A stretch of DNA of 9,253 nt from a bacterium (GTDB lineage Bacteria; Patescibacteria; Saccharimonadia; Saccharimonadales; UBA4665), in the NCBI GenBank assembly GCA_021778165.1, contig JAJYCU010000012.1, positions 1 to 9,253 of the forward strand. Direction: 5' to 3'. Of this stretch, positions 962-8,535 are shown piece by piece. The number at the start of each line of letters is the position of its first letter. The stretch's first letter is position 1. The position numbers and the translations under genes were made by a program. The notes under the pieces were generated by a model. That model did not search any database and was not told the origin of the DNA. It saw only the letters and a list, made by a program, of their open reading frames with translations.

Positions 962-1597
962 ATGTTAATCATGGTACTAGAAATCCTAGTAATAGTCTTA
1001 TTGCTTCTAATATTAAATGAACTTATTTTAAAGAATTCTAATAAAATAAATGAATTCAATCGAAAATTCGTTCACATATCAGTCGGTAGCTTTATTGCTT
1101 TCTGGCCTTTTTTAATATCCTGGCAGGACATTAGACTGATTAGTCTGGCCTTTGTAGCAGTAGTACTAGTGTCTAGAAGATGGAATATATTTAAAGGTAT
1201 TCATACAGTGGTTAGACCGACAATGGGCGAAGTTTTATTTGCAATAGCTGTTGGAGGACTGACTTATCTGACAAGTAATAACTGGATATATTTAGTCGCT
1301 ATTTTACAAATGAGTTTGGCTGATGGTTTAGCTGCTATGATCGGCACGAATTTCGGTAAAAAAAATAGCTATCGGGTATTCGGTCAAATTAAAAGTATTA
1401 TTGGGAGTTTAGGATTTTTTATATCGTCGTTTATTCTACTAATAGTCTACGGTATTTTAAGTGCCGTTCAGTTACCAGTTTATTTGATTATTAATTTCTC
1501 TCTATTTTTAACACTTATTGAAAATGTCGGAATTTTTGGGCTTGATAATCTCTTAGTACCTGTCTTTACAGTATGGTTTTTAAAGTTAGTAGCCTAA
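962..1597 (+). CDS. Polyprenol/phytol kinase-like membrane protein (SEC59/VTE5 superfamily)
   Basis: This 211-residue, highly hydrophobic protein has seven or eight membrane segments. It carries the signature order of the CTP-using dolichol/phytol kinase superfamily: RKxxH at 34-38; GE at 89-90; a nucleotide-binding-type ADGLAAMIG followed by FGKK at 120-134; K144 with GSLGFF from 148; and E187 followed by GLDNLLVP at 193-200. Family members phosphorylate a long-chain isoprenoid alcohol in the membrane. In a bacterium the likely substrate is undecaprenol or a scavenged polyprenol, which is an inference. The usual K-(S/T)-x-E-G-S is KSIIGS here, so the Glu before Gly is Ile. A second ATG lies at 971. 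The PAP2 and LCP genes nearby fit a lipid-carrier role. A CDP-diglyceride synthase-like activity is the main alternative. Confidence 0.72.
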   Translation: MLIMVLEILVIVLLLLILNELILKNSNKINEFNRKFVHISVGSFIAFWPFLISWQDIRLISLAFVAVVLVSRRWNIFKGIHTVVRPTMGEVLFAIAVGGLTYLTSNNWIYLVAILQMSLADGLAAMIGTNFGKKNSYRVFGQIKSIIGSLGFFISSFILLIVYGILSAVQLPVYLIINFSLFLTLIENVGIFGLDNLLVPVFTVWFLKLVA

Positions 1598-1598
1598 A

Positions 1599-1618
1599 AA
1601 ATTAGATTGATCTTTTTT
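1599..1618. terminator. Weak bidirectional hairpin between converging genes
   Basis: An A-run and a T-run flank a short AGA/TCT stem with a TTGA loop (1604-1613), just where the plus-strand kinase-like gene and the minus-strand P-type ATPase homologue end 4 bases apart. Reading either way gives a hairpin followed by T residues. Two T-T mismatches break the outer stem, so this is only a candidate terminator serving both genes. Confidence 0.25.
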
Positions 1619-3449
1619 CAACCAATAAACTGTAGGCAATAATTATTAGCACAAATATGTTTATTTCTACCAATTGCATGACTGAGCTAAGTATTAAGTT
1701 GAAGTTTAATTTAATCGAAACATAAACAAGTCCAATGTTCAGTGCTAGTGCCAGAATTACTAAAATTTTAAGTGTTGTTTGAGCGAGCCTAGACAATTTA
1801 AAAGATCTTAAGAGTTGTTTCAAGTCAGTCGGGGAAATAATGAAGTCTGGATGGTGTTGCAAAGACTCTTCTATCTCATCACTAAGCTCGACGACACAGT
1901 TAGCTCTAGAATAAATACTCTTTTCAGATATGTTACTAGATACTAATGTGATAGGTTTTAGTTTCTGTTTTCCAATTAGTTCTAGTTTATCTTTAGTGGA
2001 CTGATTGAAAAAGAAATTAAAAATATCTAATTTTTCGGCTATTGTTTTGACGGCCGATTCATTGTCGCTACTTACTATAATCAAGTTTTTAATTTTCATT
2101 TTTAGTGAGGCAATAACAGAGAAATTATTTTTCGGGATGTCTTCTTTAAAAGTTATAACACCAGACAATCTATCGTTAATGACTATGTATAATGCTGAAG
2201 AATTTAACCTAATTTTATTGAATGCTTTAGGAATCTCAATTTCTTGGCTCTTGATGATTGGTTCAAGTCCGATCTTTACTGAGTCGTTTTTTATTTTAGA
2301 TGCAGAGTACAATTCACTCACTTCAAGGTGCTTTATTTTAATTAATTTTAATTTACGTCGTTTAATTGATTCCAAAAGAGTTTCACTACTGGGATTATTT
2401 TTTGATTGAAAGATTGAAGCGGCAAGAGTCAAAACCTCATTGTCTGATAAATCAGAGAAATTGTAGATAGTGTCTAAATCTTTTTTGTTGGATGTTAGGG
2501 TACCGTTTTTACCAAATATAATGGTCTTGGTCTTAGCTAATAATTCAATTGACCGTGAGTTTTTTACTAAAATACCAGAATCATAAAGAGAATTTAGGAT
2601 TGGTATATAGATAGTTTTTGAGGAGATTATCAATAAATACGGAGACGCAATAACTAATATTTTAATTAAATCCGACAGATTTTTATTGTAAGAGAATAGA
2701 AGTATTGCCAAAGATAAAACGGCCAAGTGATAGGCAATTAAATTATTAATTATTTTCCGACTAGTTTTATTTTGAGATGATAAAGCCGAACGCTTTAAAC
2801 CACTGACTCTATTAATTAAGGTATCGTTAGCAATAGACACGACTTTAACTTCAATTTTTTCAGCGATTGTTCTCGATCCAGCTAAAATCTTAGAGTTTTT
2901 AAAGATGTTTATTTTGTGATGTTTTGAAGTCGACGGATCAATTGACTCAATTGTGGCTTGGTCACCCAACATCATTACATCAAAAGGAATCGAAGATTTT
3001 TCTGCTATAACTAGTTTATCGCCAATCTTAACGTCTCTGATGGATGTTTTTATTATTTTTCTTTTTTTGATGACATCGATATATTCACTTGCATGATCAC
3101 TTAATGAGTCTTCGAAATCATTTTTCAAGTAAGTAAGTAGTAATTTCTCGTTAAGGGGATATATTGAAATAAAGAACAGAAGTAATATGGTCAGATTGTA
3201 GTATGAATTAAAAAAGGAAATCAAAATAGCTAAGAATAGCAAGAAATTAATATCTAATTCATTGAATTTTATTTTCTGATAATAGTTAATTATTAGTGGT
3301 ATCAGTATAAAGATAAGGTCAATCAGCGATAACCAGAATTGGTAACCGTTTGTTTTGGTTAAAATCAACACCATATTAACGATAAGCGCCAGACTGCTTA
3401 ACAAAACAAAATAATAGTCTTTTAACACACTAAATAGCTTTTTTATCAT
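1602..3449 (-). CDS. Degenerate P-type (P1B-like) ATPase, catalytically dead pseudoenzyme
   Basis: This 615-residue protein has P1B-like order: four N-terminal membrane helices (about 12-100), an actuator domain (about 105-235), two helices (about 240-282), P and N domains (about 300-550) and two final helices (about 558-608). There is no N-terminal metal-binding domain. Homology is clear in TIIFGKNGTLT (309-319), against family TIVFDKTGTLT, and around SSDNESA (460-466), against TGDN. Nearly every active residue is changed: the phosphorylated Asp is Gly313; the actuator TGE is missing (IDPSTSK); the CPC-type motif is ASPY; GDGIND is SSNISE (504-509); and the N-domain HP is not evident. ATP-driven pumping by the usual phospho-Asp cycle looks impossible. 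The frame is unbroken, so the protein is probably kept for another role (inference). I prefer the ATG at 3449, preceded by GGAAG with five A's, over the in-frame TTG at 3461. Confidence 0.82.
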   Translation of the reverse strand: MIKKLFSVLKDYYFVLLSSLALIVNMVLILTKTNGYQFWLSLIDLIFILIPLIINYYQKIKFNELDINFLLFLAILISFFNSYYNLTILLLFFISIYPLNEKLLLTYLKNDFEDSLSDHASEYIDVIKKRKIIKTSIRDVKIGDKLVIAEKSSIPFDVMMLGDQATIESIDPSTSKHHKINIFKNSKILAGSRTIAEKIEVKVVSIANDTLINRVSGLKRSALSSQNKTSRKIINNLIAYHLAVLSLAILLFSYNKNLSDLIKILVIASPYLLIISSKTIYIPILNSLYDSGILVKNSRSIELLAKTKTIIFGKNGTLTSNKKDLDTIYNFSDLSDNEVLTLAASIFQSKNNPSSETLLESIKRRKLKLIKIKHLEVSELYSASKIKNDSVKIGLEPIIKSQEIEIPKAFNKIRLNSSALYIVINDRLSGVITFKEDIPKNNFSVIASLKMKIKNLIIVSSDNESAVKTIAEKLDIFNFFFNQSTKDKLELIGKQKLKPITLVSSNISEKSIYSRANCVVELSDEIEESLQHHPDFIISPTDLKQLLRSFKLSRLAQTTLKILVILALALNIGLVYVSIKLNFNLILSSVMQLVEINIFVLIIIAYSLLVEKRSI

Positions 3450-3472
3450 TTTTTCTTCCAATCTTTCGATTA

Positions 3473-3534: not shown

Positions 3535-3546
3535 TAAAACTTGATT

Positions 3547-5226
3547 ATGGACAGTAATAATGATGATTTTTCGAGGTCTAGACCCAGAAGAACTAGCATA
3601 GACGGTTTTATTGTTAGGCCGGTTAGGGCTCGTGGTGACTTTGTTAAATCAACAAATCAGCCAAGACTGAGATCAACTGTTCAGCCGCAACCTCTTTTAC
3701 CACGACATAATACTGAATTTATAAAACCAAAACCAAAACTAGATGTCAATCACTCATCGCCATCTCTAATTGGTATCAGTCTACCTAATTCGTTTAGCGG
3801 AAATAAAAATAATTCATCAAACCCGTTTTCAGATAAATCTGGAACCAAAAAAATCAAAAAGAAAAGGTCTAAATTAAGAAAAATAAGCTTCAGGTCAATC
3901 GCTGTAATAATAATTATATTGTTAGGGATTGGCGGATTTGTTGGGTATAAAGGCTTAAAAACAATTAATAAGGTATTCCATGGCAATATAATATCTGACC
4001 TGACAGCGCCCTTTAGCTCCTCACCATTAAAAGGAGAGAACAATGGAAGAGTCAATATTTTATTGGCCGGAGATTCGGTTGATGACCCTAATCATCAAGG
4101 TGCCAGTTTAACTGATTCTATTATGGTACTGAGCCTTAATACAAAAACTAAACAAGCCTTCTTATTAAGTATACCGAGGGATCTTTGGGTTTATGTACCT
4201 GGTCTATCTTCTTATCAGAAAATAAATGCTGCAAATACGGTTCTTAGATTCAATCAATCTGGCTACCCAGCTGGTGGCATGGGCGAACTGGAGCAGATAG
4301 TTACCACCCAACTAGGAATACCAATAGACTACTATGGTCTTATTGATTACACAGCCTTTAGGGATGCCGTTAACGCTGTCGGTGGAGTCACTATAAACAT
4401 TCAAAGCTCCAATCCATATGGGCTTTATGATCCTTACACTAATTTAAAATTACCTAACGGCTGGGTTACTCTCAATGGTCAGCAAGCTTTAAATCTCGCA
4501 AGGGCAAGAGGTGATGGTCCGGGTGCTTATGGTTTTCCCCAGTCAGATTTTGATAGAACAGCTCATCAAAGGCAGCTCTTTACAGCAGTTGCCGAAAAGG
4601 CCTTAACTCTCGGTTTTCTATCAAATCCAGCTAAAATAAGTAATTTGTTTAATGCATTTGGCAATAATCTACAGACTGATTTGAGTTTGCAGAATGTACT
4701 AAGACTAATTCAGTATGTTAAGAATATAAACCTAAACACAGTCCAGTCCTATGCATTTGCCTACGGTTCAACCAATAACTTTCCAAACCCGATACTTAAA
4801 GGGTATGTTGATCCTTCTTCAGGACAAGATGCCTTAATCTCGACTGATGGTATCGGTGTATACACAGCTCTCACAAATTACTACAATCAGTTAACTTCGA
4901 CTAATCCACTAGTAGTTGAATCAGCACCGATTACCTTGTTGAATGGATCGGGTCAGGTCGGACTAGCTCAAAAAGAGGAAACTATTCTGAAAAATCAAGG
5001 TTATAATGTAACAAAAATCGCTGATGCCTCTAAGACTTATTCGTCTTCTATGATAGTTGATCAATCTGGTGGACAAGAACCGCTGACGCTAGCTGCTTTA
5101 AAAAGGGAATTTTCTTCACAAGCTCAGATCACAACATCTTCTAATTATGGACAAGAGTCCTATGAAGCAATTAATTACGAGTCGAGTTTTGTAATAATTT
5201 TAGGTAATAATTTTAAAATTAATTAA
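3547..5226 (+). CDS. LytR-CpsA-Psr (LCP) family glycopolymer transferase with LytR_C domain
   Basis: LCP enzymes transfer glycopolymers such as teichoic acids or capsule from a polyprenyl-pyrophosphate carrier onto the cell wall, acting outside the membrane. This protein has a cytoplasmic, disordered, Arg/Lys/Pro/Ser-rich tail (1-112, ending in a lysine cluster), one membrane helix (115-134), an LCP domain (about 168-353) and a C-terminal LytR_C domain (about 460-554, opening ITLLNGSGQVGLA). LCP landmarks are SLTDSIM (187-193), SIPRDLWV (208-215), KIN (225-227), the GGV strand, LNGQQAL with ARAR (318-321), and FDRTAHQRQ (335-343). The Arg and Asp residues that bind carrier phosphate and metal in the family are therefore present, and it should be active. 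An in-frame TTG lies at 3541; I chose the ATG. The 110-residue basic tail is longer than in classic LytR and might bind nucleic acid or acidic lipids (inference). Confidence 0.93.
   Translation: MDSNNDDFSRSRPRRTSIDGFIVRPVRARGDFVKSTNQPRLRSTVQPQPLLPRHNTEFIKPKPKLDVNHSSPSLIGISLPNSFSGNKNNSSNPFSDKSGTKKIKKKRSKLRKISFRSIAVIIIILLGIGGFVGYKGLKTINKVFHGNIISDLTAPFSSSPLKGENNGRVNILLAGDSVDDPNHQGASLTDSIMVLSLNTKTKQAFLLSIPRDLWVYVPGLSSYQKINAANTVLRFNQSGYPAGGMGELEQIVTTQLGIPIDYYGLIDYTAFRDAVNAVGGVTINIQSSNPYGLYDPYTNLKLPNGWVTLNGQQALNLARARGDGPGAYGFPQSDFDRTAHQRQLFTAVAEKALTLGFLSNPAKISNLFNAFGNNLQTDLSLQNVLRLIQYVKNINLNTVQSYAFAYGSTNNFPNPILKGYVDPSSGQDALISTDGIGVYTALTNYYNQLTSTNPLVVESAPITLLNGSGQVGLAQKEETILKNQGYNVTKIADASKTYSSSMIVDQSGGQEPLTLAALKREFSSQAQITTSSNYGQESYEAINYESSFVIILGNNFKIN
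5208..5221. terminator. AT-only palindrome between the LCP gene and tRNA-His ends
   Basis: TAATTTTAAAATTA is a perfect 14-base palindrome overlapping the last LCP codons. On the minus strand it lies just after a T-run that follows the tRNA-His CCA end. It could help end transcription in both directions where the two genes converge, but an AT-only stem is weak and may be chance. Confidence 0.2.
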
Positions 5227-5229
5227 AAA

Positions 5230-5307
5230 TGGGGCGAATGATGGGTTTTGAACCCACGACCTTCGGGACCACAATCCGACGCTCTAACCTACTGAGCTAC
5301 ATCCGCC
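5230..5307 (-). tRNA. tRNA-His (anticodon GTG)
   Basis: It folds as a full cloverleaf. The acceptor stem is GCGGATG/CATTCGC with one G-T wobble, and the anticodon GTG lies at 5272-5270 in loop TTGTGGT. The T arm is GTGGG-TTCAAAA-CCCAT. The His-specific extra G at -1 (5307) faces C73 (5233), and the 3' CCA is encoded (5232-5230). The anticodon stem TCGGA/CCCGA has an unusual A31-C39 pair closing the loop. It lies head-on to the LCP gene, 3 bases past its stop codon. Confidence 0.95.
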
Positions 5308-5396: not shown

Positions 5397-6050
5397 ATGG
5401 AAAAAAATAAAATTAATAAATATACATTTTTAGGTTTCGAACTTTCTAATTGGGATATCGCCGGTCTTTTGATTGCTTTACTACTTTTAATCTTTTCGGC
5501 TAGCGTGTCAATGAGCCATCAACTAACCGGATGGCAGCGAACATTATTCTATAATGTTAATAATTGGCCAAATTACTTTAAGAACTCAGCTTTAATTATT
5601 ACTGAAGCGCTTGGTGCTGGTTACCCTATTGCAGTTTGTGTTATAGTTCCGATTCTCTTTAAAAACTATAAGCTGGCTTGGAAGTTTTTCGTGACAGTAG
5701 GCGGTGCAGGTGTAATCATGGAAATTGCTAAACATATTGTCAAAGAACCACGACCGGTAGTAATGTTGTCTGGTCATTTACATCAACGTGCAATTGAGAC
5801 TGGCTTGACCAGTTATCCTTCAGGCCACGCAGCCGTAGCAACGGCTATGGCTTTAACTCTATGGTTTGTACTACCAAAAAAATTAAGATTTTTGAGTGTT
5901 TTATGGATTTTGTTGGTGATTATTTCCAGACTTTATCTGGGAGTACACACACCACTAGACGTAATCGGTGGGTTTTCAATCGGCTTTTTAGCTATTTTGG
6001 CAGTTAAAATTTTACCAAAAAATTTTGCTAAGAAAATTTATCTCAATTAG
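5397..6050 (+). CDS. PAP2-family membrane lipid phosphatase
   Basis: This 217-residue integral membrane protein has all three catalytic motifs of the PAP2/phosphatidic acid phosphatase superfamily: KxxxxxxRP (K112 to R119-P120), PSGH (141-144) and SRxxxxxHxxxD (S177-R178, H184, D188). The mechanism uses the two His residues and the Asp, with phosphate held by Lys/Arg. About six membrane helices are visible (roughly 20-38, 65-88, 94-111, 145-160, 166-182, 188-206), with the motifs on the outer face by family topology. Likely substrates are undecaprenyl pyrophosphate (a BacA/PgpB-type recycling role) or a lipid phosphate; sequence alone cannot decide. Lipid-carrier recycling fits the LCP gene before it and the polyprenol-kinase-like gene at 962. 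The start is fixed by the promoter seven bases upstream. The size is normal for the family and nothing is truncated. Confidence 0.93.
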   Translation: MEKNKINKYTFLGFELSNWDIAGLLIALLLLIFSASVSMSHQLTGWQRTLFYNVNNWPNYFKNSALIITEALGAGYPIAVCVIVPILFKNYKLAWKFFVTVGGAGVIMEIAKHIVKEPRPVVMLSGHLHQRAIETGLTSYPSGHAAVATAMALTLWFVLPKKLRFLSVLWILLVIISRLYLGVHTPLDVIGGFSIGFLAILAVKILPKNFAKKIYLN

Positions 6051-6292: not shown

Positions 6293-6369
6293 TGGTACCC
6301 CGAGCAGGATTTGAACCTGCGACCTTAGGCTTAGAAGTCCTCTGCTCTATCCAGCTGAGCTATCGGGGC
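6293..6369 (-). tRNA. tRNA-Arg (anticodon TCT)
   Basis: The acceptor stem is GCCCCGA/TCGGGGT with a G1-T72 wobble. The D arm is GCTC/GAGC, the anticodon TCT lies at 6335-6333 in loop CTTCTAA, and the T arm is GCAGG-TTCAAAT-CCTGC. The discriminator is A73 and the CCA is encoded (6295-6293). The anticodon stem is odd: GAGGA against GCCTA gives only three Watson-Crick pairs, with G27-A43 and A31-G39 mismatched. The rest of the fold is normal, so I call it a real tRNA rather than a relic. Confidence 0.92.
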
Positions 6370-6474: not shown

Positions 6475-7242
6475 ATGAAAATATTCTTTCTTCTTCTTTC
6501 GTTCATACTAATTGTTGCACTAATGGCTTGGTATCTGATTTCCAATGATAAAGGACCAAAGGAACCAATAAAAGCATTATGGCTAGCATTTATCTTCGGT
6601 ATGTTTGGTGCTGTAGCGGCTAGTATTTTAGAGAAGTACTTAATAATTTATAAAAATACTCAACCAGGTGCTCCAGATATCAAAATGATTGGTAGCTACT
6701 TAGTAGTTGGAATTATTGAAGAATTAGTTAAGTTTTTGCCTTTTGCTATCTATATCTATAAGAAAAAATATTTCAATGAGCATAGCGACGGTGTTTTATA
6801 TTTCGCAATCGTTGGGCTTGGTTTTGGTTTACCAGAAAATTTATTGTATGTGCTTAATTTCGGCACTTCTACTGGTATAGGGCGCTTATTCTTAACTCCT
6901 TTCTTTCATGCTACTACTGTTGCTCTCGTGGGTTATTACTTATCGCGCAAAAAACTTTCTGGTGGATCGTTTAGGCCAGTTATTAATGCCCTAGCTTTAG
7001 TTATCGTTCTTCATTCTGTCTATGACTTTGGTTTATCGTCCGGGATAACGATTCTAACAGTTATTTCAATCTTAATCACAGCCTTTTTAAGTATAAATCT
7101 ATTTAGTTTGTATTATCGTTCAACCGAGTTAGATCAACTTCAGGGGATAGCCGAAGTAGGTATAAATCGATACTGCCGAAATTGTGGTCGAAAAAATTCT
7201 GAACATCACCTCTATTGTACATACTGTGGTAACCATGCTTAA
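6475..7242 (+). CDS. prsW: PrsW-family intramembrane protease with C-terminal zinc ribbon
   Basis: PrsW proteases cut membrane-embedded substrates; B. subtilis PrsW performs site-1 cleavage of the anti-sigma factor RsiW. Here 255 residues contain about seven membrane helices and the family motifs: EELVK (E82, E83, K86), D105 followed by GLGFGLPEN (114-122), FFHAT with H145, and LHSVYDF with H180 and D184. All expected conserved acidic and His residues are present, so it should be active. Fused at the C terminus, on the predicted cytoplasmic side, is a zinc ribbon, CxxC-10-CxxC (C234, C237, C248, C251). The next gene, 25 bases on, starts with a matching ribbon, suggesting the two proteins work together (inference). 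The start has an A-rich leader and no Shine-Dalgarno sequence. PrsW family is confident; the substrate is unknown. Confidence 0.88.
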   Translation: MKIFFLLLSFILIVALMAWYLISNDKGPKEPIKALWLAFIFGMFGAVAASILEKYLIIYKNTQPGAPDIKMIGSYLVVGIIEELVKFLPFAIYIYKKKYFNEHSDGVLYFAIVGLGFGLPENLLYVLNFGTSTGIGRLFLTPFFHATTVALVGYYLSRKKLSGGSFRPVINALALVIVLHSVYDFGLSSGITILTVISILITAFLSINLFSLYYRSTELDQLQGIAEVGINRYCRNCGRKNSEHHLYCTYCGNHA

Positions 7243-7267
7243 ATAAGGATGAAATAACTAACAAAAA

Positions 7268-8146
7268 ATGTATTGTCCAAACTGTAATTCACCAATCGAT
7301 GAGAGCGAATATTTTTGCGGAAATTGTGGTATTAACCTTAGACCAAAAAATCCTGAGTCAGATAAGATAATGAGTACTGGCTTTGTCGAAAAAACATTGC
7401 CCCAGTACGCGAAACTTAAAACAATTCCTAAGTTAAGTTTAGCGACCTACATTAGCTACCTTAGTTTTTTTGGTGGAGCTATCATCGCTTTATTTATTTC
7501 ACCTATTTACGGACTGTTAGCTGGTTTGATTGGCATTATCAGTGCCAGTTTTATATCGAGAAAATACCATATTATCCACAAATCAGTTGGTCTAGTCATG
7601 GCCTCAGTTCTAATTATTTTCAGCGTAGCGGTGGTGTCACATAATTATAATGTTTTGAAAAAAAATCAATCTGCTAATAAATTAAGTTCAAGTAATTCAT
7701 TGCTCAGCTCGTCAGTAAATACGAGTTGTTATAGTTTCAGTTTTTCAACTGAATTAAATTTATCGGCTAATAACACTGGATGTTCAATCGAGGCTTACAA
7801 TGGTTCGACTCCGAGTAATTCAACTATTTTTTACAAAATTTTATCGGTTGAAAATCATAATATAAACCAAACCAATTTTACAGGCTTAATCAGTCCGATT
7901 ATTGTTCAAGACGTCAAACAGAGTTTGAACGGTTTTAGTATTGTAAGTGAGAATCAAACAACTTTTGCCGGTAATCTCGCTTTTGCAGTTTTAGCTAACA
8001 GCAATACTGCTAATAATTCAGTTATTGAGGAGGGAGTTTATCATCCATCTTCAGGAGCAAACTTCTTTGACATTATTTACTCAAATGACTATCCTAATGT
8101 TAACTTGAGTAGTTTACAATCGAGCTGGGTATGGAAAAAATATTAA
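7268..8146 (+). CDS. Zinc-ribbon membrane protein with an extracytoplasmic domain
   Basis: I recognise no full-length family for these 292 residues. In order: an N-terminal zinc ribbon (C3, C6, C17, C20) of the double-CxxC type; a linker; membrane segments at about 57-77, 80-97 and 105-125; a Ser/Asn-rich linker (134-152); and a soluble domain (153-292) with two cysteines (C154, C172) that could form a disulfide outside the cell. With three helices and a cytoplasmic ribbon, that domain would be external. Its end (FFDIIYSNDYP, then SSWVW) resembles the closing strands of PsbP/DcrB-like domains, a weak impression only. It lies 25 bases after prsW and overlaps the next gene by 16 bases, so the three are almost surely co-transcribed. 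It may be the substrate or partner of PrsW (inference). No clear ribosome binding site; AAGGA is about 18 bases upstream. Confidence 0.8.
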   Translation: MYCPNCNSPIDESEYFCGNCGINLRPKNPESDKIMSTGFVEKTLPQYAKLKTIPKLSLATYISYLSFFGGAIIALFISPIYGLLAGLIGIISASFISRKYHIIHKSVGLVMASVLIIFSVAVVSHNYNVLKKNQSANKLSSSNSLLSSSVNTSCYSFSFSTELNLSANNTGCSIEAYNGSTPSNSTIFYKILSVENHNINQTNFTGLISPIIVQDVKQSLNGFSIVSENQTTFAGNLAFAVLANSNTANNSVIEEGVYHPSSGANFFDIIYSNDYPNVNLSSLQSSWVWKKY

Positions 8147-8460: not shown

Positions 8461-8535
8461 TGGTGCGAGTGGCGGGAGTCGAACCCGCGTCACCAGTTTG
8501 GAAAACTGGGATAATGACCGTTATACCACACTCGC
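8461..8535 (-). tRNA. tRNA-Gly (anticodon TCC)
   Basis: The acceptor stem is GCGAGTG/CACTCGC, and the short D arm (GTAT with ATTAT) is typical of bacterial tRNA-Gly. The anticodon stem CCAGT/ACTGG is perfect, with loop TTTCCAA and anticodon TCC at 8502-8500. The T arm has the TTCGA motif, the discriminator is A73, and the CCA is encoded (8463-8461). It lies 26 bases downstream of the murA-like stop codon on the same strand and has its own -10 box overlapping that stop. Confidence 0.96.

Follow-up and report, generated by a model that had tools for sequence, protein, structure and literature searches.

A degenerate P1B-type P-type ATPase conserved in one clade of probable Saccharibacteria and most likely kept for a role other than pumping

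A single phosphorylated Asp defines P-type ATPases, which are textbook examples of pumps. A member of the superfamily retained without function reportedly occurs in FUPA family 24 (Chan et al. 2010), where a type I ATPase half is said to be fused to a type II half and function to be kept in the latter only. The protein analyzed here resembles that case in being a retained P1-type moiety without function; however, the FUPA moiety is reportedly joined to a working pump within one larger protein, whereas ours is free-standing and recurs in the DNA under study and six further genomes. Set against P1B pumps such as CopA, ZntA and their Saccharibacterial TPC relatives, it is a pseudo-pump without the phosphorylatable Asp, TGE, the M4 Cys, GDGxND and the nucleotide-site motifs. 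In its kept fold and some kept ligand contacts, its replaced catalytic residues and its clade-wide conservation it is comparable to pseudokinases and pseudophosphatases. Passages of two publications name Saccharibacterial homologues of CtpE, which belongs to a different P-type family (PMC10654040; PMC5615198). A preliminary description of the locus, made from its letters only, considered P-type pseudoenzymes of this degree to be little described in bacteria; no report of a conserved pseudo P-type ATPase was found in the open-access literature with a limited set of phrases.

The window, meaning the whole stretch of 9,253 nucleotides that was analyzed, contains the pseudo-pump gene together with the following neighbors:

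1602..3449, minus strand: degenerate P1B-type P-type ATPase (pseudo-pump), 615 aa, stop included; from profile and PDB matches and orthologues
962..1597, plus strand: SEC59/CTP-transferase-like membrane protein, convergent neighbor; in 7/7 degenerate and 60/80 intact stretches
3541..5226, plus strand: LCP (LytR-CpsA-Psr) glycopolymer transferase, divergent neighbor; in 6/7 degenerate and 0/80 intact stretches
5397..6050, plus strand: PAP2 phosphatase (undecaprenyl-diphosphatase-like), next protein gene after LCP

The frame of the pseudo-pump runs from an ATG at 3449 to a stop at 1602 and encodes 615 aa, with a TTG at 3461 as an alternative start that would give 619 aa. Its product matches TIGR01525 (NCBIfam) over residues 71-595 with an E-value of 4.8e-50, while missing the curated cut-off of that profile (171 bits versus 346.25); it exceeds the cut-off of PF00122, the actuator domain (44 bits versus 28.1), stays just under that of PF00702 (24.3 versus 26.4), and among PDB entries matches CopA (3j08, E 6e-23). 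The PF00122 match and the M, A, P, N domain order make it a homologue of the superfamily. Going by sequence, it is a P1B-type ATPase with homology over nearly its whole length, and the profile and PDB matches put it closest to the heavy-metal P1B pumps. The P1B-like fold and length that had been read over about 615 uninterrupted residues agree with these matches, the coding strand being the minus strand. A predicted model likewise matches P1B pumps over 604 residues; because the alignment behind it is rich in intact pumps, and AlphaFold run on four close rows alone reaches a pLDDT of just 33.9, this confident model is no independent proof of the fold.

Aligned to intact members, the catalytic and metal-binding sites of the window protein read as follows:

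2499..2513, minus strand: GKNGT at the DKTGT site (residues 313-317), with Asp replaced by Gly and Thr by Asn
2916..2930, minus strand: T-S-K-H-H at the actuator TGES site (residues 174-178), the loop alignment being uncertain by 1-2 residues
2637..2645, minus strand: S-P-Y at the M4 TPC metal site (residues 269-271), with Pro kept and Cys replaced by an aromatic residue
2064..2072, minus strand: S-S-D at TGD (residues 460-462), with the Asp and the Ser/Thr position of HAD motif II kept
1986..1988, minus strand: K488, the HAD motif III Lys, kept in 8/8 degenerate members
1923..1940, minus strand: SSNISE at GDGVND (residues 504-509), with the Mg-binding acids lost

Every individual replacement that the preliminary description listed for the soluble domains (Asp to Gly313 in GKNGT, TGDN to SSDN, GDGxND to SSNISE, and disappearance of the actuator TGE) is seen in this alignment. 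Two of its broader statements stand in part. For the membrane metal motif the loss of Cys is real, but CPC is the wrong reference, since intact relatives have TPC (76/79) or SPC (3/79); and the phrase "every catalytic motif erased" is right for the nucleophile, TGE, the M4 Cys and GDGxND but goes too far for K314, D462, K488, P270 and the motif II Ser/Thr, which are kept.

A protein search with the window protein retrieved P0002 (75% identity) and P0003 (66%), followed at a distance by a match of 24%, among the best 120 of 188. A genome scan found one locus, L001 (JAJXVX010000004.1), and of the 148 relatives of its genome that were then searched 118 had a match, some of them outside this ATPase family. 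The same kind of degenerate protein, with the same losses, is encoded in six other genomes (G001, G002, G004, G005, G006 and G007), at 66-75% identity to the window protein in G001/G002, 32% in G007 and 21-23% over the full length in G004/G005. These orthologues measure 614-616 aa where complete, the G006 copy being split over two contigs and read as two pieces. For comparison, 79 other family members were fetched from 78 genomes (G085 twice), mostly picked by score and not at random; source names of intact members among the best 120 matches include Candidatus Saccharimonadales, Saccharibacteria, and a few Dormibacteraeota and Verrucomicrobiae, and judged by these relatives the window probably comes from Saccharibacteria, which are very small bacteria. 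All 79 have an intact DKTGT, [TS]GE and metal-motif PC; [TS]GD is intact in 78/78, GDGxND in 76/76 and the motif III Lys likewise in 76/76, the remainder being cut by contig ends. The loss pattern, found in 7/7 records of one clade (the window and six genomes) against 79/79 intact among the other members fetched, is by its distribution not a product of chance. An assembly or frameshift artefact was ruled out, as the pattern stands in seven different records and the gene order is shared with G001 over most of the window and with G002 over all of it. None of the six degenerate genomes yielded an intact member of this ATPase family, the kind of paralogue that had been suggested as a check, and some of them carry other P-type ATPases.

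Counting an eighth, half-way member, P0121, the nucleophile and an intact HAD motif IV are lost in 8/8 degenerate proteins: GDGxND stands at 0/8 versus 76/76 intact, and the Cys-containing M4 motif (CPC/SPC/TPC) at 0/8, with SPY, SPF, TPF or SPG instead. The TGE loop is present in 0/7 rows that cover the stretch. Position 313 reads G, G, S, T, T, N and N in the seven degenerate members and N in P0121; a replacement nucleophile was ruled out, no Asp standing at this variable site and no conserved substitute being found. In addition, the window protein has lost the nucleotide-site His and GxG. Retained in all deep degenerate rows and in P0121 are K314 (in xKNG), D462 (in SSD), K488 and the M4 Pro P270; the motif II position is Ser or Thr in 8/8, and the Asn of xKNG is common to 8/8. 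In HAD enzymes the motif II Ser/Thr and the motif III Lys are phosphate contacts, and the degenerate pocket could accordingly hold phosphate while being unable to transfer it. More broadly, 10 of the 132 near-invariant columns of 76 intact proteins survive in all deep degenerate rows having a letter there (P155, D157, P270, E302, K314, G394, D462, K488, P499 and L574), and in 16 of 596 compared columns all degenerate rows share a residue that intact members rarely have, D66, N68, Y97, P98, Y107, N315 and N571 being among them. The net charge of seven full-length degenerate proteins, P0121 included, lies between +20 and +28, whereas 76 intact ones average 4.9 and reach 19 at most; low GC accounts for part of this excess (z 1.6-3.1).

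The convergent SEC59-like gene, whose name is tentative because its product stays under the cut-off of Pfam CTP_transf_1 (19.9 bits versus 24), is shared by degenerate and intact loci, so that the degenerate gene is most simply the pump's orthologue and not a side copy. The 80 intact stretches behind the neighbor counts include G047 twice, and 77 of them hold at least 800 bases upstream. LCP homologues occur elsewhere in such genomes, for instance in G008 and G018, and in G007 a PAP2 gene takes the place of LCP on that side of the degenerate gene. In a tree of the SEC59-like neighbor (69 rows), an SH-aLRT of 98 supports the grouping of all seven degenerate genomes. The ATPase tree (44 rows), which carries a long-branch warning, groups all eight degenerate members with P0121 branching first (90, unstarred) and the seven deep ones joined with support 100. 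Independent losses were rejected on the SEC59 tree, with which the ATPase tree agrees despite its very long branches; the losses thus probably happened once, in the ancestor of one clade.

P0121, which was picked up by a profile built from the degenerate rows, shares 54% identity with the intact protein of G018. It reads NKNGT, TGNH, SPG and GNGVDD but still has TGDN, the Lys and, at the nucleotide site, His and GRG. It thus resembles an early stage, suggesting that the chemistry was lost first and the nucleotide site later.

Purifying selection acts on the degenerate gene. The window and G001 copies, of 1845 bases each, are 73% identical and differ at 128/66/301 sites by codon position, and the G004/G005 pair differs at 118/63/234. 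The dN/dS of window versus G001, which had been suggested as a check for decay, is far below 1 (NG86 0.048, YN00 0.131, ML 0.063), the values being rough because dS is saturated; six neighboring genes of the same pair have lower ML values of 0.009-0.052. In a neutral simulation to 0.1 substitutions per site, 0/300 runs remained stop-free. A decaying pseudogene was ruled out by the low dN/dS, the third-position excess, the SEC59-tree clade, the equal length and this simulation. Kept under purifying selection without its catalytic residues, the protein qualifies as a pseudoenzyme, and it probably neither catalyzes nor transports.

Since the residues for pumping are lost yet the gene is kept intact by selection, the protein most likely has a different membrane job now. 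A conserved pseudo-pump of probably single origin is well supported; as to its role, a non-pumping membrane scaffold or sensor is the reading we favor with some confidence, its tie to the envelope being a best guess. The retained non-pump function that had been proposed from the intact frame, with a sensor, scaffold, scramblase-like or regulatory subunit as candidates, gains support in this respect from losses conserved in six other genomes and from a dN/dS far below 1. Judged by its place in the genome and by its descent, the pseudo-pump is orthologous to a widespread Saccharibacterial P1B-type metal ATPase. The capacity for phosphoryl transfer and for Mg binding, like the membrane metal site, was lost, probably a single time, in the ancestor of the clade, and purifying selection has kept the product since then with its membrane P-type ATPase layout. 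Its M1-M4 core may then do the membrane work, while the former phosphorylation pocket, with phosphate-contact Ser/Thr and Lys kept, may still bind a phosphate-bearing ligand; likely partners would be the adjoining envelope enzymes, namely the LCP transferase, the PAP2 phosphatase and the SEC59-like protein, although adjacency of genes is weak evidence for function. Counting against a scaffold or sensor are the survival of just 10 of the 132 intact-family invariants, and fast evolution, which strong relaxation would explain as well as a new role would. Relative to SEC59, the ATPase distance is 1.6-3.3 in 15 degenerate pairs, whereas 465 intact pairs have a median of 0.60; the 12 intact pairs whose SEC59 proteins are most similar give 0.7-1.1. 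The readings weighed below overlap with this one, a scaffold possibly being a subunit, and the chances given to them need not add up to a whole.

An ATP-independent carrier or channel for metal, lipid or another solute, reusing the P-type membrane core, is a possible but unlikely alternative. It draws on two stretches that are the best conserved in the window's subclade:

3120..3263, minus strand: pre-M1 to M2 (residues 63-110), best-conserved stretch, with the new invariants D66, N68, Y97, P98 and Y107
2577..2744, minus strand: M3-M4 (residues 236-291), next in conservation

In the window/G001 pair, 98/104 positions of the M1-M4 core are identical, versus 366/511 elsewhere (p 8e-8). Synonymous identity at same-residue sites is 48/98 in the core and 182/363 elsewhere, and this equal codon agreement indicates that the constraint acts on the protein. 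New invariants before M1 and in M2, and the M4 Pro kept in 8/8, would also suit a carrier or channel. However, the core of G004/G005 is no better conserved than the rest (74/101 versus 370/497), and in the intact pairs tried it is likewise somewhat better conserved, so the argument from the core is local to the window's subclade and fails as a general rule. Moreover, three residues that do not vary among 76 intact members, Cys in M4 and Glu and Asp in M6, have disappeared, although M6 is aligned with some uncertainty and the window protein has another Glu close by; the old metal path is thus probably lost. The large soluble domains are kept too.

Less probable again is a role as a subunit that regulates or helps to assemble another membrane protein, perhaps as the inactive partner of an intact P-type ATPase, a reading that overlaps with the scaffold. 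Pseudoenzymes often act as regulatory or assembly partners, other kinds of P-type ATPase, their motifs intact, are present in G007 (two), G006 and G003 (one each, that of G003 with its TGD pattern unmatched), and a second P-type ATPase is degenerate in the same clade. Against this, a PF00122 search of G001, G002, G004 and G005, whose assemblies may be incomplete, detected no P-type ATPase whose motifs are intact, which argues that such a partner is not general.

A bolder version of the envelope reading, which we regard as doubtful, makes the dead ATPase a fixed part of an envelope module with LCP and PAP2, its emptied HAD pocket reading a phosphate-bearing lipid or sugar; with the second P-type ATPase degenerate in the same lineage, dead pumps would then be a theme of the clade.

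That the gene is a relic under fading constraint, still translated and heading to loss because a reduced genome has no need of the pump, appears improbable. Its accelerated rate would fit, as would G014, G050 and G061 (L134-L136), where the SEC59-like gene is present without a match to the ATPase at E 1e-5 and the gene may have been lost outright; but a length of 614-616 aa held across members just 21-23% identical, the third-position excess with dN/dS far below 1, and the new invariants all speak against it. Least credible is an unusual chemistry hydrolyzing ATP or phosphate with other residues, for although K314, D462 and K488 are kept in 8/8 and motif II stays Ser/Thr, the nucleophile and intact motif IV are gone from 8/8, position 313 varies between G, S, T and N, and the window protein has lost its nucleotide-site His and GxG.

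A clade-wide loss, together with the half-way P0121 and with intact orthologues that occupy the same locus, allows one to ask directly what use a pump scaffold has without pumping, and in which order a catalytic cycle is dismantled. It is also a caution for automatic annotation, as a PF00122 match would assign to these cells a pump that they probably lack.

The second degenerate P-type ATPase, P2-like by eye, is found at G002:C30:4934-7609 (L137), G001:C21 and G001:C5 (L127 and L138), G005:C48 (L128) and G003:C8 (L133). Neither DKTGT nor GDGxND is present in the four stretches covering these sites (L128, L133, L137 and L138), L127 holding the N-terminal 256 aa only, while ten homologous stretches from other relatives (L139-L148) have both motifs. 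Its frames span 892 aa in G002 and 681-684 aa in G003 and G005, with differences by codon position of 168/100/381 (G001/G002) and 136/68/252 (G003/G005).

Elsewhere in the window, scans returned 16 promoter-like sites versus 19.2 expected and 1 terminator-like site versus 2.5 expected. A plus-strand frame at 3-926, open at the window edge, encodes a protein of at least 307 aa with two YbjQ stretches that is about 89% identical in G001 and G002. Positions 6475-8146 (plus strand) encode a PrsW-like membrane protease that carries a zinc ribbon and, after it, another membrane protein of the zinc-ribbon type, a pair also present in G001, G002, G006 and G007, and tRNA genes for His, Arg and Gly lie between protein genes at 5230-5306, 6293-6369 and 8461-8535 (minus strand).
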